Part shown: piece after piece, positions 4,457-51,252 of the stretch | How positions within the stretch are numbered: the stretch's first letter is position 1 | Layout of the letters: the number at the start of each line of letters is the position of its first letter | DNA from: an uncultured Pirellulaceae bacterium | GTDB lineage: Bacteria > Planctomycetota > Planctomycetia > Pirellulales > Pirellulaceae | Assembly: GCA_937928555.1 (NCBI GenBank) | Contig: CALFWR010000002.1 | Coordinates: 1 to 64,000, forward strand | Length of the DNA stretch: 64,000 nt | Reading direction: 5' to 3' | Notes under the pieces: model-generated | Told to the model about the DNA's origin: nothing | The model's input: the letters and a program-made list of their open reading frames with translations, nothing else | The model's database searches: none | Translations under genes and position numbers: made by a program

Positions 4457-4643
4457 CCCGGATTATTCACGACGACGGGCGTTGATTCTACGTCTGGCCA
4501 ACAGGAGCAAGGGAAAAACTGAATTTCAACAAGAAATGCGAATCATTCGGTAGGTGAAAGCCACAGCGATCGTTTCATCGCATCAGAGTCGAGGATCACT
4601 GTCTCAACTGATTTTGACGCCCACGCCTGGTGAATAATCCGGG
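4457..4643. mobile_element. MITE-like element, family A
   Basis: Termini CCCGGATTATTCAC/GTGAATAATCCGGG; flanks TTTAG/TTTAT. Confidence 0.85.
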
Positions 4644-6818: not shown

Positions 6819-9146
6819 TCAGTCGAGTTCGACCGTTTCGATAGCCGGCGTGTGGTCGAAGTGGGTGGTCGCGTTGTAGGCCCGCGCGATGACGAACAGC
6901 TTGGGACATTTCGGGACAGGAATTGAAATTTGCCAGCTCTGATTTTTTTGGGATCCGGAAATGGGAGCGAGTATGGCCACGTGGTCAACGTAGTCATTGC
7001 TCCACTTATTGCCGGTCCAGAAGCGACGGGTATTCGGGTTCTCGAAGCTGACTTTGACGGCACTGATTGCGTTGTGGTCTTCGGCGGTTCCGCTGACCAT
7101 TAGTTCCGTCTTGCTGTTAGCAGAAATGCGATGGGAAGTGATCTTAGTTTCGGGATCGGCGAATGACAGTTTGAACGAGAGAGCATCTTTGCTGTTGCGC
7201 CGGTTGTCGATGTCGGTGGCGAACAAAACCAGTCGGACGTCCTGGGCTTTGAGGTCAACATTGGGTTTGATGGCGTACGCGCGGGTGTCGAGCGTATAAG
7301 ACCACTTGCTGGAAAGGCCTGTGGGTTGAGCGAGATTTGCGTTGAAGCGATGGCGAACGGGCGACCAACCGTCGCCGGTCCAAAAGTCACCCGATGCCTT
7401 GCACCGCAGTTCCAATTCGACTTTCTTGATCCCGCCATCGGATTCCACGTAGCCGGCGAGTTCTAGCGGCGTAAGGCTGGGGCACAGTCGCATATCGTCA
7501 GAGGTCGCTGGTTTGTCGATGGCAGCGATTATCGGCTTGAAGCGTACGTTGCGTTTTGAACGCAGTTTGGCTGCCAGTTCCTGCTGTCGCTGTGGTTCGA
7601 GTTGGTCGTACAGGTTGTCGAGTTGTTCGGGGTCTGCGCGGAGGTTGTAGTATTCCAGACCGCCGGTCGCCCATTGCGTGAAGATGCTGTCGTGCATCCG
7701 CAGGCTGTTGTAAGTCGCAGGCAAAACGATGCGATTGGAGACCGATTGGCCCCAGTTTTCGATCACAATCGCGTCGCGTTGAAAGGAATCGTCGTCCGGA
7801 TCGGTCAGCAGTTTCGCGAATGATTTTCCATCGCAGGATTCGGGAGTTGGTTCGCCGGCAATCGCAACGAGGGTAGGTGTGATGTCAATGTTGGCTAGCA
7901 ACTGATCGCACTGCCTGCCCTTGGGGATGCCCGGCCCAGACACGATAAAAGGGACTCGCGTGATTCGATCGTAGGGCAGTCTTTTGCCCATGTGACCGTG
8001 CTGCGTGAAGCGAATCCCGTGATCGGAAGTAAAAATAAAAATCGTGTTCTCAAGCATGCCCAGCGATTTCAGTTGATCGCGCAGGGCTCCGATGCCTTCG
8101 TCGATGCCAGTCATGGTTCGCAAACGGTCGCGATAAACTTTGGTGATGTATTGTAGGCGGGATTCGTCGGGAGCGACGATGGCTTTCATCTCTTCGATCT
8201 GGCCATTCACTTTTTGGGCCAAGCGTGATTCGCGATCGGGAAGGGCGGCGTCGGCGTAAAGTGACTTGTGTCGCGGGGCCACCATCGGGCTGTGTTGGCT
8301 TGTGATGTGGGCGGCGATGGGAGACCAGCAAAGCATCAGGGGTTTGTTGGAATGTTTGCTTTTGGCGTGCGCTTGGATGACATCGATGGCGTGGCGGATG
8401 TCCCAGTCGGTGCGGTACTCTTGGTTTTTTCTGCAAAATTCGTCTTTTGATTTTACGAATGAAGGAAAGTCCCGGTAGCGGCTTCCGAGGGTAACGCAAA
8501 ACTCATCCCACCCGGGTGGGACGATGTCGTTCCACTTGATTCCGTTGGCATGGTCGGGCGTGAATTCGTTGTGGAGGTATTTGCCGACGTGGGCGGTGCG
8601 GTAGCCGGCCCGTTTCATCCAGATCGCGAGTTCGTTTTGCGGATCGAAATTCGAGTAGCCTCCGCTGAAGCCCAGGGCTCTCGACAGATTCGAATCGTTG
8701 ACTTTGCATTGATGACGATGCGCGTACTGTCCGGTGTAAAGACAGGCGCGGCTGGGGCCGCAAACGGGGGTCGTGACGTGAAAGTTGGAGAAGCGTATGC
8801 CGGCTTGAGCCAAAGCTTTCAGGTTGGGGAAGGCGATCGTGTCCAGGGGTTGCCGAGGGAAGTCACCGAACACGGATTCACAGTCCACGTCGTCGCTGTA
8901 GATCAGGACGATATTGGGACGCGGGTCACGAGTGTTGCTCTCTGTTGGTGTTTTGGTAGTTTGCGTTTCGGTAGTTTGCGTTTCGGCTGTTGGCGTATCA
9001 GTGTTGGGTTTGACTTTTGTTTTGGGGTCCGAGCATCCACTGCAAGGGAATCCGCAAGCCAGAGCGAACAGGATCACAATCAAAAATCGGTGCATCGAAT
9101 CGATTGCCATGGAGTTGTCTGTTAACGTTGATCCGGAATTATTCAC
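6819..9146 (-). CDS. sulfatase (iduronate-2-sulfatase-like) lipoprotein; true start probably ~9110 or ~9095
   Basis: RPNIVLIYSDDVDCESVFGDF, TTPVCGPSRACLYTGQYAHRH, FTSDHGIRFTQHGHMGKRLPYDRITRVPFIVSGPG; annotated start lies inside a MITE terminus. Confidence 0.92.
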   Translation of the reverse strand: MNNSGSTLTDNSMAIDSMHRFLIVILFALACGFPCSGCSDPKTKVKPNTDTPTAETQTTETQTTKTPTESNTRDPRPNIVLIYSDDVDCESVFGDFPRQPLDTIAFPNLKALAQAGIRFSNFHVTTPVCGPSRACLYTGQYAHRHQCKVNDSNLSRALGFSGGYSNFDPQNELAIWMKRAGYRTAHVGKYLHNEFTPDHANGIKWNDIVPPGWDEFCVTLGSRYRDFPSFVKSKDEFCRKNQEYRTDWDIRHAIDVIQAHAKSKHSNKPLMLCWSPIAAHITSQHSPMVAPRHKSLYADAALPDRESRLAQKVNGQIEEMKAIVAPDESRLQYITKVYRDRLRTMTGIDEGIGALRDQLKSLGMLENTIFIFTSDHGIRFTQHGHMGKRLPYDRITRVPFIVSGPGIPKGRQCDQLLANIDITPTLVAIAGEPTPESCDGKSFAKLLTDPDDDSFQRDAIVIENWGQSVSNRIVLPATYNSLRMHDSIFTQWATGGLEYYNLRADPEQLDNLYDQLEPQRQQELAAKLRSKRNVRFKPIIAAIDKPATSDDMRLCPSLTPLELAGYVESDGGIKKVELELRCKASGDFWTGDGWSPVRHRFNANLAQPTGLSSKWSYTLDTRAYAIKPNVDLKAQDVRLVLFATDIDNRRNSKDALSFKLSFADPETKITSHRISANSKTELMVSGTAEDHNAISAVKVSFENPNTRRFWTGNKWSNDYVDHVAILAPISGSQKNQSWQISIPVPKCPKLFVIARAYNATTHFDHTPAIETVELD

Positions 9147-9319
9147 GACGACGGGCGTTGATTCTACATCTGGCCAGCAGGAGCGAGGGAAAAGCTGAAA
9201 TTCAACAAGAAATGTAAATCATCCGGTAGATGAAAACCACAGCGATCGTTTCATCGTGTCTGAGTCGCGGATCACTGTCTCAACTGATTCTGACGCCCAT
9301 GCCTGGTGAATAATCCGGG
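9132..9319. mobile_element. MITE-like element, family A
   Basis: TCCGGAATTATTCAC...GTGAATAATCCGG; flanking GTTGAT on both sides. Confidence 0.85.
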
Positions 9320-9451
9320 TTGATGTCACGTTGAAGAATGAACCCCGTCTACGGACCGGGCAGAATATAGGTGAATGATCGGCGAGGTCACTGTTGGTTT
9401 CGCAATGTACCAGTTGCCACAGCATTAGGATCAACAATGCCGACCTTTTAA

Positions 9452-9639
9452 CTCGGATTATTCACGAGGCGTGGGCGTGACTTTCAGTTCAGTCAATGAA
9501 CGTCGTCTCAGTCCGGGTAAAACCGCTTTGGTCCACATCATCGGCGAGGTGAACCGGAATTTCCGAAGCGAACCCGGTGTCACGTTAGCTTTCGTGTGGT
9601 TCAACCCGATCAACGCCCGTCGTCGTGAATAATCCGGGT
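9452..9639. mobile_element. MITE-like element, family B
   Basis: CTCGGATTATTCACGAGGCGTGGGCGTGACTTTCAG...CAACGCCCGTCGTCGTGAATAATCCGGG. Confidence 0.85.
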
Positions 9640-9664
9640 TAATTGACGTTGAGCCCATATTTTG

Positions 9665-9831
9665 CCAGACTCTGGTGGCTTTCCCATTTCAAGCTGGATC
9701 GTTTTTTCGATCCTCTGAGGGGATACCCCTTGGTTTTTTCACACGTCACCATTTCGCAATGGTGAACTGTAGGGCGACTACCGTCGCCCAATTGTTCACC
9801 GTCGGCTTGCAACGTTGAGATGGGAAGGCTC
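9665..9831 (+). ncRNA. retron msr-msd ncRNA
   Basis: a1 GGCTTTCCCATTTCAA (9677-9692) pairs with a2 TTGAGATGGGAAGGCT (9815-9830); AGC after a1; msr hairpins GGATCG-T6-CGATCC and AGGGG-ATA-CCCCT; msd hairpin GGTGAAC..GGGCGAC-TACC-GTCGCCC..GTTCACC; immediately upstream of RT. Confidence 0.85.
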
Positions 9832-9839
9832 TTTTTCTT

Positions 9840-10847
9840 ATGCGTTTTGATCTGCCCAAATTCCGATCTGTGACCGCTCTTGCCCGTGCTGTTGGAGTGC
9901 CTGTCGGTGATCTGTATTGGCTGGCGAACCCGCGTTCACATTTGAGAAGAAACGATAGCCGGCACTACCGGTCGTGGTGGATTCGGAAACGTTCTGGCGG
10001 GCATCGGCTGATCGAGTCTCCCCTGCCACGGCTCAAGGAAGTCCAAAACCAACTGTTGTCGCAAGTCTTTGATCGGATCCCGCCGCACTGCCTGTCCTTT
10101 GGATTTCGAAAAGGTGGTAGCGTGGTCGATTTTGCCAAACCGCATGTGCGACAGGACGTCTGTCTGAAGCTGGACTTGAAGGACTTCTTTTTGCATGTCA
10201 CCACCGGGCGAGTTTTTGGACTGCTCAAAACGGCTGGCTTTCGTCGCGACCTGTCACATCTGATGGCTCTGTTGGTGACCGTTCGCACCGGCGAGGAGTT
10301 GTTGACCGTTGGGCATCCTGACCCATCGTTCACGATCCGTGATCCGGTTTATCGTCGGCGGCATCTGCCGCAAGGTGCTCCGACGTCGCCCGCGATCGCC
10401 AACCTGTGTGCGTTTGGTTTGGACGTGCGACTGTCGGGGTTGGCTCGCAGCGTGGGGGCTCATTACTCGCGCTACGCGGACGACATTTTGCTTTCGGGTG
10501 ACAGCGATTTTGGCAGACAGGCCAAGCGGCTGTCGGTTGTTGCGGGAACGATTGCCCTGGAGGAAGGCTTCGAGGTGAACTTTCGCAAACTGCGTTTGAT
10601 GCGATCAAGCCAGCAGCAGTTTGCGGCGGGGATGGTTTTGAACGATGGCTTGAGTGTGCGGCGAAACGATTTTGATGCGCTGAAAGCGATTTTGCATAAT
10701 TGTGTGCGCCACGGTCCGGCATCGCAGAACCGGTTTTCGGTGCCGAGGTTTCGTGAGCACATGGAGGGGCGTGTGCGGTGGGTGGAGACGGTGAGCAAGA
10801 ACAGAGGCCGGAAGTTGCGGGAGATATTTGAAAAGATTCAGTGGTGA
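9840..10847 (+). CDS. retron-type reverse transcriptase
   Basis: LDLKDFF, LPQGAPTSPAIANL, YSRYADDILLSG, AAGMVLND, LKAILHN, HMEGRVRWVE; preceded by msr-msd. Confidence 0.95.
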   Translation: MRFDLPKFRSVTALARAVGVPVGDLYWLANPRSHLRRNDSRHYRSWWIRKRSGGHRLIESPLPRLKEVQNQLLSQVFDRIPPHCLSFGFRKGGSVVDFAKPHVRQDVCLKLDLKDFFLHVTTGRVFGLLKTAGFRRDLSHLMALLVTVRTGEELLTVGHPDPSFTIRDPVYRRRHLPQGAPTSPAIANLCAFGLDVRLSGLARSVGAHYSRYADDILLSGDSDFGRQAKRLSVVAGTIALEEGFEVNFRKLRLMRSSQQQFAAGMVLNDGLSVRRNDFDALKAILHNCVRHGPASQNRFSVPRFREHMEGRVRWVETVSKNRGRKLREIFEKIQW

Positions 10848-10887
10848 TGTGAGCCGCTGAGAAAGCTGGACTGTGATTTAAGGGCGG

Positions 10888-11000
10888 GGCGATTGCCGGA
10901 ACGGCGGACGGACTGAGAGCGTGGGATGTTTTTTGGCGATGCGAGTTTGGTGGGTTTGTTGGTGGTGTTGTGGCAGTTCGCGTCCTTGGTCCGGCCTACA
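10888..11000. repeat. REP-like repeat (GATTGCCGGAACGGCG...TTGGTCCGGCCTAC)
   Basis: Same terminal motifs as at 2428-2539, 2777-2888 and around the RAYT gene. Confidence 0.6.
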
Positions 11001-11004
11001 TGAC

Positions 11005-11191
11005 CCCGGATTGTTCACGACGATGGGCGTTGATTCTACGTCTGGCCAAAGGGAGCAAGGGAAAAGCTGAATTTCAACAAGAACTGCGAATCGTCTGGTA
11101 GATGAAAACCACAGCGATCGTTCCATCGTGTCTGAGTCGCGGATCACTGTCTCAACTGATTCTGACGCCCACGCCTGGTGAATAATCCGGG
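11005..11191. mobile_element. MITE-like element, family A
   Basis: CCCGGATTGTTCAC...GTGAATAATCCGGG; 5-bp TSD ATGAC. Confidence 0.87.
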
Positions 11192-11201
11192 ATGACGCGC
11201 T

Positions 11202-12380
11202 CTAAATTTGCACTTCCATGTCTTCCTGAATCTCGAGTAACTCCTCGATCCAGATCCGCAAGTCCTGATCGTAGTCGCTTGCGAGATCGGCTTTGATCAG
11301 TTGACGGTGAAAGGCACTCGCTGCGTCGCGGTCGAGGTATTCGGCATCTTCGGCACTCTGAAATCGTTTCGAGGGATCAGGGTGTGTCAGGCCGCGGCAA
11401 AAGCCCATTAACAAATCGTTTCGCCAGATGTCTTCGGGAAGCAGTTCGGGAAGACGATCCCAGAGCGTCTTTTTGGCATCGATCAGACTTTCGAGCGTCT
11501 TGTGCGATTGGAACAGTCGCCGCCCCGCGATCAACTCCAGCAGCACGTAGCCCACGCTGGCAAGGTCCGACAGCGGCGTCGCTGTTTCTCCTTCGAGGAC
11601 TTCGATTGCGGCGTAAGACGGAGTGCATGTTTGCTTTGCCAGCGGATCGTCACCCGAAAACGCAGAACCAATGTCAACCATTTTGGCGTGGCCGCTACGT
11701 TTGAGCATGATGTTGGCCGGTTTGACGTCGCCGTGGATCAGCCCCTGGCGGTGCATGATGGCGAGGCCTTCGAGACATTCGCGGACGATCGCGACCGCGA
11801 CGCCGGGGCGAAAGCGGGGTTGCTCTTCACCGTAGGTAATCAAAACATCATTGATGTAGCTCCAACGTTTCTCGCTAAACCGATCTTTGACGATGCCGAA
11901 CATCCGTGGCGTCATCAAACGGCGCAAGTCAAAACCTTCGACCCATTCCATGATCATCATGCGGATGCGTTCGCGGTCCAGAAAGTTGTAGACCTGAATC
12001 AGGTTTTCGTGCTGCATGCGAGCAACCCGGGCAGCGACGTTCGCCATCCGGCCCATATCCGCGTCGTACTCCTTGGGTGTTGCGTAGCGTTCGGGTGAAA
12101 AGACCTTGATCGAGACAGGCAAGGTAAACCCGTCGGCTCCGCGGCGTCGGGTCAAGTACACGATGCCCTGCCCTCCCCGACCGATCTCACGAATCAAGCC
12201 CAGGTGAGTCGTCCAGCTGTGGCGTTTCTTCTTGACGATACTGCCGTAGACTTCCATCAGCTCGTGATTCTGAAACACGGACTGTGATTCATCGGCGGCG
12301 CGGGTGGCGGTGTCATCAAGGTCCGAGAGTTGGCCGGTCCTGAGGAAAAGCGAAGTTGGATTATCTTCGTTGTTGGACAT
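11202..12380 (-). CDS. serine/threonine protein kinase
   Basis: IGRGGQGIVYL, HGDVKPANIMLK, MVDIGSAF kinase motifs. Confidence 0.92.
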   Translation of the reverse strand: MSNNEDNPTSLFLRTGQLSDLDDTATRAADESQSVFQNHELMEVYGSIVKKKRHSWTTHLGLIREIGRGGQGIVYLTRRRGADGFTLPVSIKVFSPERYATPKEYDADMGRMANVAARVARMQHENLIQVYNFLDRERIRMMIMEWVEGFDLRRLMTPRMFGIVKDRFSEKRWSYINDVLITYGEEQPRFRPGVAVAIVRECLEGLAIMHRQGLIHGDVKPANIMLKRSGHAKMVDIGSAFSGDDPLAKQTCTPSYAAIEVLEGETATPLSDLASVGYVLLELIAGRRLFQSHKTLESLIDAKKTLWDRLPELLPEDIWRNDLLMGFCRGLTHPDPSKRFQSAEDAEYLDRDAASAFHRQLIKADLASDYDQDLRIWIEELLEIQEDMEVQI

Positions 12381-17480: not shown

Positions 17481-17508
17481 TTGCGGCGCGTTCCAATTAC
17501 CACTATCA

Positions 17509-17697
17509 CCCCGGATTATTCACGACGACGGGCGTTGATTCGCGTTGAACCTCACTGATACGAACGTCAAAGCTGGATTGTCGCCCAGATTTCGGTTCAC
17601 CTCGTTGATGAAGTCTAGGACAGAGACTCTTTTCCAACCCGTGCGATGATCATTGGCTGAACTGAAAGTCACGCCCACGCCTCGTGAATAATCCGGG
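17509..17697. mobile_element. MITE-like element, family B (inverse orientation)
   Basis: CCCGGATTATTCACGACGACGGGCGTTGATTCGCGTTGAACC...CACGCCTCGTGAATAATCCGGG. Confidence 0.85.
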
Positions 17698-17751
17698 TTG
17701 AATCTGCCAACGCTGCCAAAGTTGACCTGTTGGAGAACGTCCGATAGTGGG

Positions 17752-29200: not shown

Positions 29201-29438
29201 GCCGGATTATTCACGGGGCCTGGGCGTCAGAATCAGTTCTGGCACTGATCCGCGACTCTGATGCGATCAAACGATCGCTGTGGTTCTCATCTACCGGATG
29301 ATTCGCGATTCTTGTTGAAGTTCAGATTTTCCCTTGCTCCTGTTAGCCAGACGTAGAATCACCGCCCGTCGTCGTGAATAATCCGGGATCAGTGAGGTTC
29401 AACGCGAATCAACGCCCGTCGTCGTGAATAATTCCGGA
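29201..29438. mobile_element. composite MITE-like element: full family A copy (29201-29387) fused to family B 3' end (29389-29438)
   Basis: CCGGATTATTCACGGGG...CGTGAATAATCCGGG then ATCAGTGAGGTTCAACGCGAATCAACGCCCGTCGTCGTGAATAATTCCGGA. Confidence 0.85.
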
Positions 29439-48972: not shown

Positions 48973-49247
48973 GGCTTAACCTTGACAGTTGTTATCAGAC
49001 ACTTTGGGCATTCTAGTGGAAATTTCGCGCCAAAGTCGTTTTTATGTTGACGTGATTTTGCCAAACGACCTGCTCCCGTTGCAGCGTCTTTGTCGATCGT
49101 CTGGGGGTTTGGGTCAATCGTTATTCGCGAGGCGTGAGAGCCATGGCTAACTCAGGCAATGACGACAGAGGTTACCCACACCAAAAGCTTTGGCTTGCTC
49201 CGACTTCTGGGAGTCTGCCGGAGTCTGCCAGAGTCGTCGCGGTTAAT

Positions 49248-49434
49248 CCCGGATTATTCACGAGGCGTGGGCGTCAGAATCAGTTGAGACAGTGATCGGT
49301 TACTCTAATGCGATGAAACGATCGCTGTGGCTTTCACCTACCGAATGATTCACATTTCTTGTTGAAATTCAGTTTTTCCCTGGCTCCTGTTGGCCGGACG
49401 TAGAATCAACGCCCGTCGTCGTGAATAATCCGGG
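49248..49434. mobile_element. MITE-like element, family A (inverse orientation)
   Basis: CCCGGATTATTCACGAGGCGTGGGCGTCAGAATCAG...GTGAATAATCCGGG; TSD TTAAT. Confidence 0.9.
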
Positions 49435-50836: not shown

Positions 50837-50962
50837 ATCTTTGCCGCAGCGACGACGTTCAATTTCATTGTTTGATCCAGCTGCATGCGACCAGCTATTC
50901 GCTTTCTGTTTTGCAGGCTGGCCCTGATCTACCTCTTATTTGTGCCGGCCTTTCTGTATCAG

Positions 50963-51148
50963 CCCGGATTATTCACGAGGCGTGGGCGTCAGAATCAGTT
51001 CCGGCAGTGATCCGCGTCTCTGATGCGATGAAACGCTCGCTGTCGTTTCATCTATCGGATGATTCGCGATTCTTGTTGAAATTCAGCTTTTCCCTTGCTC
51101 CCGTCGGCCCGACGTAGAATCAACGCCCGTCGTCGTGAATAATCCGGG
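50963..51148. mobile_element. MITE-like element, family A (inverse orientation)
   Basis: CCCGGATTATTCACGAGGCG...GTGAATAATCCGGG; TSD ATCAG. Confidence 0.9.
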
Positions 51149-51252
51149 ATCAGAGACGCCCGCTGTCTGTCGATGCGTCGACCTGTTCTGCCGAATCTCC
51201 GGCAACCCGGCCGCTGCGGTGTCCTTTCGTTTTCGTTGCGGCGCAGTAAAAA

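Follow-up and report, generated by a model that had tools for sequence, protein, structure and literature searches.

The window, by which we mean the whole stretch of 64,000 nucleotides analysed here, carries a retron on its forward strand. A noncoding RNA of 154 nt is followed by a reverse transcriptase (RT) gene, and the two lie between a sulfatase gene upstream and a Ser/Thr kinase gene (11202–12380) downstream. The original prediction described a full retron layout directly 5' of an RT with a YADD motif, and every element of that layout was found where it had been placed. The features of the locus are as follows.

9677–9830, forward strand: retron noncoding RNA (msr–msd) from the start of a1 to the end of a2, with a fold z of −6.9, a covarying alignment of 25 sequences and a covariance-model match at 9676–9833
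9677–9692, forward strand: a1 repeat arm, GGCTTTCCCATTTCAA, pairing with 9815–9830 over 16 bp, with covariation in homologues
9693, forward strand: predicted branching guanosine in CAAGC, with an AAG that is invariant in 25 homologues
9696–9713, forward strand: msr hairpin 1, GGATCG-T6-CGATCC (arms 9696–9701 and 9708–9713), from the sequence and the MFE fold
9715–9733, forward strand: msr hairpin 2, with eight pairs (arms 9715–9722 and 9726–9733), loop ATA and the conserved core GGGG[AT]TACCCC, from covariation
9761–9800, forward strand: msd hairpin, with an outer stem (9761–9767/9794–9800) and an inner stem (9772–9778/9783–9789), from pairing and double changes
9815–9830, forward strand: a2 repeat arm, TTGAGATGGGAAGGCT, holding the Shine–Dalgarno-like GGAAGG (9824–9829)
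9840–10847, forward strand: retron RT of 335 amino acids that lacks its family's N-terminal extension, from PADLOC RT_other/RT_outgroup, Pfam RVT_1, AlphaFold2, Foldseek and the alignment

Direct reading gives 16 contiguous pairs between a1 and a2, three of them G:U, and puts the ATG of the RT (9840) 9 nt past the end of a2, both as predicted. The first msr hairpin was likewise seen in the sequence and in the MFE fold. The second had been described as AGGGG-ATA-CCCCT; the hairpin is present, but that extent is only the inner part of a stem of eight pairs. A search of the whole genome from which the window comes, a draft of 168 contigs that is 91% complete, found one copy of the retron RT. The same genome encodes three further RVT_1 RTs that are not close kin (G000:C73:7882–8505, G000:C24:14608–15219 and G000:C17:430–903).

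The reverse transcriptase and its family

Pfam assigns the 335-residue protein to RVT_1, and the PADLOC models that score highest on it are RT_other (406.5 bits, 5e-122) and RT_outgroup (387 bits, 2.9e-116), with RT_XIII third at 294 bits. The type II-A model reaches 188.9 bits compared to 406.5 for RT_other, and a group II RT model 37.9 bits (1.1e-9). The AlphaFold2 model has a mean pLDDT of 92.6, and when it was compared with the PDB using Foldseek the first 18 matches were all retron RTs, headed by Ec86; group II, DRT and DGR RTs ranked lower. The YADD motif and other residues typical of the family are intact, and D112, D214 and D215 are invariant in the RT alignment. Region Y (VTG) reads AAG, where the family has LAG, VAG, VTG or ATG with the glycine invariant, and the NAxxH of region X was not located. 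Neither Pfam nor the AlphaFold2 model gives a fused extra domain. The protein is a retron-lineage RT, not a DGR, group II or DRT enzyme, and its predicted place within the retron clades is upheld by the PADLOC scores and the top 18 Foldseek matches. One member of the family, L023 from genome G051, has YGDD instead of YADD.

Named relatives of the RT are spread over the Planctomycetota, Acidobacteriota, Myxococcota, Pseudomonadota, Verrucomicrobiota and Actinomycetota. The window sequence is joined in the RT tree by those of the complete genome G199 (L031) and of G211 (L032) at 100/100, and next by those of other genomes of the same genus, which is probably Mariniblastus. The RTs of Myxococcus and Pyxidicoccus fall inside the same family and have the same top two PADLOC models as the window RT, over their full length. 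Support for the inner forks of the tree is weak. Its outgroups, three retron RTs from outside the family, have long branches, so the deep placement is drawn chiefly from the PADLOC scores. From these sequence comparisons we assign the window RT to the myxobacterial retron clade, the RT_other/RT_outgroup of PADLOC. Within the genus of the window a homologue is present in only 6 of 28 genomes, and the copy in one of these (G213) is split between reading frames. Among the Planctomycetaceae, the family of genome G438, the RT family occurs in 68 of the 81 genomes sampled and in 59 of the 69 that are of good quality, which is unusually common for a retron.

Conservation of the noncoding RNA

The RNA has a minimum free energy of −78.9 kcal/mol, compared to −49.4 ± 4.3 kcal/mol for dinucleotide shuffles (z −6.9), and none of 200 shuffles folded as well. 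Stems in which CAAG follows a1, with arms 140–180 bases apart, were found directly 5' of most related RTs. In the alignment of 25 sequences the positions that are invariant or nearly so are the AAG of the branch region (25 of 25 homologues), the core of hairpin 2 and the GTT that begins a2. The invariant AAG includes G9693, which had been named as the candidate branching guanosine and is still the base from which branching is predicted.

The RNAalifold consensus pairs a1 with a2 and forms hairpin 2. Compensatory double changes occur in 14 of the 20 pairs of these two helices, 96.8% of cells are paired (79.6% in shuffled alignments, 40–53% in slid controls) and the covariation score is 0.491 compared to 0.187 in shuffles; none of 500 shuffles matched the alignment. 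Because the sequences were chosen in part for the a1/a2 stem, the statistic for this helix, with double changes in 9 of 10 aligned pairs, is partly favoured; hairpin 2, which has 100% of cells paired and double changes in five of eight pairs, is free of that selection, as is the covariance model R1 that was built from the alignment. The arms of a1 and a2 form 10.4 of 14 pairs with their own partners and 6.4 when crossed between homologues, a difference that is only indicative because the own anchors were picked as the best scoring. The length of msr hairpin 1 varies among homologues. The msd hairpin is found in nearly all of them, and in the four Mariniblastus sequences (the window, L031, L032 and L002) its stem is 92.9% paired with four double-change pairs. 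A long msd hairpin of nested stems, and covariation of the a1/a2, msr and msd stems in homologues, had both been expected of a retron and are both borne out.

Of 78 named relatives, 69 have a match to model R1 where the RNA should lie; one of them is Myxococcus qinghaiensis, with 30.4 bits 5' of its RT. In the window the model has exactly one match. An Rfam scan of positions 9000–12000 returned no family for the msr–msd, giving one chance match only, and part of the value of the model is that it finds across several phyla an RNA with no Rfam family match.

The Shine–Dalgarno-like GGAAGG lies inside a2, and the homologues in G199 and G211 have similar purine-rich runs. Its position means that folding of the RNA could compete with translation of the RT, so that in the window the two may be mutually exclusive. 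We rejected this arrangement as a device of the whole family, since it was seen in the short clade described below and a few other members only.

The missing N-terminal extension

Of 80 named relatives, 77 have an N-terminal extension of about 100 amino acids; the exceptions are the short G211 copy, a copy split by a stop codon (L100) and a copy cut by the end of its contig. In a structural model of one full-length relative the extension is a small helical domain, and it has no Pfam match. Myxococcal retron RTs also carry an N-terminal extension, of unknown function (PMC6868368). In the alignment the RTs of the window, G199 and G211 start at their core, and the matches of the window RT to the two best PADLOC models begin at position 80 of 407 and position 143 of 481. 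L100 was considered as a fourth short RT and rejected, as its extension is there but cut off by the stop codon.

We also considered whether the extension might be supplied in trans. A profile of the extension was positive in all six control genomes known to bear it, with E-values of 5e-21 to 5e-32, but found no credible copy in the three genomes with short RTs; there was none in the genome of the window, and the best matches in G199 (E 0.0046) and G211 (E 0.34) lay in frames with stops, so supply in trans was rejected. Given that the short RTs form one clade and that the extension is absent from all three genomes, it was lost once, in the short-RT lineage inside the genus of the window. The window retron was filed as a derived variant of the myxobacterial clade because that clade is defined by RT phylogeny.

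The three short RTs are 57–59% identical in pairwise comparison, with dN of about 0.37–0.39 and dS of about 2.5 or saturated, and all three members keep the noncoding RNA. Purifying selection on the RTs together with retention of the RNA means that both are still maintained in the absence of the extension. Synthesis of DNA is probably selected for in this lineage as well, because the RT sequence and the RNA stems are conserved, and the extension would then be dispensable for msDNA synthesis.

The same facts bear on whether the locus is a decaying remnant that has lost its N-terminal domain and its function and is disappearing from the genus. The patchy occurrence there (6 of 28 genomes) and the frame-split G213 copy are what decay would leave behind; the window RT is nevertheless a full-length reading frame with all motifs intact and dN constrained, the short clade shows compensatory changes in its a1/a2 and msd stems, and three independent members at about 58% identity have all kept the RNA. 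We regard decay as very unlikely.

Neighbouring genes, mode of action and known systems

Neither neighbour of the window retron is shared with its two closest homologues. The short RT of G199 lies between genes for an HTTM protein and a 513-residue protein of unknown family, that of G211 is flanked by an FtsX-type permease gene and tRNA-Leu, and no neighbour gene is common to the three copies. Across 82 loci of the family, judged from reading frames within about 6 kb, there is likewise no common neighbour, the most widespread clusters being ABC and regulator proteins of generic kinds, scattered in position. PADLOC gave no match around the G199 retron; around that of G211 its matches were limited to generic ATPase models hitting an ABC transporter. 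No effector gene or domain was found adjoining or fused to the window RT, in line with the original prediction.

Three neighbouring genes were weighed as partners and rejected. The kinase matches the PADLOC kinase models as a general kinase only; 26 of 28 genomes of the genus carry it, and in G199 and G211 it lies away from the retron, next to DnaK. The sulfatase is absent from both the retron and the kinase loci of G199 and G211. In the Planctomycetaceae, a membrane-like gene of about 240–290 codons with no Pfam match lies directly 3' of the RT in 17 loci (L115:5330–6193, L152:7019–7732 and 15 others), but in other genomes it is far from the RT, and it probably belongs to the core gene set.

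The absence of an effector is normal for the myxobacterial-type clade and so not by itself surprising. The original prediction was right that no effector is recognisable, but it overlooked the missing extension. It is the absence of the extension that is new in this survey, that of an effector being expected.

A MITE-like element of about 187 nt, with terminal inverted repeats CCCGGATTATTCAC...GTGAATAATCCGGG, is abundant in this DNA. It has about 12 copies in the window, where chance would give 0.45 matches to its ends and 27 were found. Scoring of 40 out of 736 initial candidates from the whole genome gave at least 40 copies that are near full length. The copies in the window include the following.

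1788–1974, 4457–4643, 9129–9323, 9450–9638 and 11001–11195: copies of the MITE-like element
17508–17701, 29202–29391, 49246–49434, 50959–51152 and others: further copies of the same element

The 195-nt direct repeats flanking the retron are part of this high-copy family and were rejected as its boundaries. A tRNA-Leu(CAA) gene (L063:5016–5099) lies 122 nt past the short-RT retron of G211 and is a possible insertion site.

The three unrelated locations of the short members, one of them just upstream of a tRNA, and the position of the window retron between copies of an abundant terminal-repeat element could be read as the marks of a retroelement, selfish or mobile, able to move from site to site. 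This is the least probable reading, to which we give scarcely any weight, as there is one copy per genome, the unit has no integrase or transposase, and the flanking element is an unrelated high-copy repeat that was absent from the retron and kinase loci inspected in related genomes. Retrotransposed msd copies were also rejected, as no second msd DNA copy was found in the genome.

We consider it likely that the locus is an intact retron of the myxobacterial type (PADLOC "outgroup"), that it is present once and lacks an effector, and that its msDNA–RT complex acts with unlinked host proteins. A single transcript would carry msr–msd and the RT, and a1 would pair with a2. The RT would bind the conserved msr hairpin, prime from the 2'-OH of G9693, the branching base by analogy, and copy the msd upstream of a2, giving a branched msDNA of perhaps 70–80 nt with a long hairpin, its ends again placed by analogy. 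Because no adjoining gene is conserved with the retron, the complex would most likely work with host proteins encoded elsewhere, probably core ones, in place of a dedicated adjoining effector. An anti-phage role is no more than a possibility.

Tripartite defence systems make up most of the retrons characterised so far (PMC12548924), and the window retron might be a split one, in which a dedicated but distant effector, a toxin, is restrained by msDNA–RT and freed on infection. Remote partners would not all be visible, because the genome is in 168 contigs and 91% complete. We think such a split system unlikely: none of the 82 family loci has a linked partner, the three short members have unrelated neighbours, the adjoining kinase is a core gene found apart from the retron in G199 and G211, and the family is near-universal in the Planctomycetaceae, unlike patchy defence systems.

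Returning to the effector-less retron, a bolder and distinctly tentative suggestion is that the short-RT lineage represents the bare minimum of RNA and RT core, with its msDNA in a host-integrated, non-defence role with core proteins. If true, the Planctomycetaceae would be the second bacterial group after the myxobacteria in which a solo retron is near housekeeping status (68 of 81 genomes). A member made up of RNA and RT core, beside long-RT relatives in the same genus, offers a simple test of the role of the extension, and such a minimal retron a way to ask whether msDNA alone has a function. The compact RT and its 154-nt RNA may also interest builders of retron editing tools. We found no in-depth description of Planctomycetota retrons in the literature searched, most subscription journals lying outside the search.

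Among known systems, the best solved structural match to the RT is Ec86 (Eco1, type II-A; 7v9x/7v9u), with a TM of about 0.75–0.82 at 25% identity. Ec86 has the same RNA layout of a1–msr–msd–a2 but a linked effector, where the window retron has none. The type XIII model is third best, far below RT_other and RT_outgroup, and nothing near the window RT was recognised as a type XIII partner gene.

Myxobacterial retrons were the first to be discovered (1984). The defence model drawn from Escherichia coli retrons does not readily account for them, as it requires an effector and they are without one. Mx162, Mx65, Sa163 and Ne144 are myxobacterial retrons that we take to be of the same type as RT_outgroup/RT_other. 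Their likeness to the window retron lies in the RT family, as seen in the tree and the top PADLOC models, a noncoding RNA 5' of the RT and the lack of an adjoining effector. The window RNA, at about 155 nt, has an msd that is much shorter than that of Mx162. Myxococcal RTs also carry the N-terminal extension that the window RT is without (PMC6868368). The prevalence of the RT in the Planctomycetaceae resembles the pattern in myxobacteria, where msDNA occurs in 27 of 28 strains and is inherited vertically (PMC6868368). Retron-Bth1 is similar to the window retron in having no apparent effector; it is, however, a disrupted plasmid- or phage-borne locus (PMC12548924), whereas the window retron belongs to a whole clade that typically has none.
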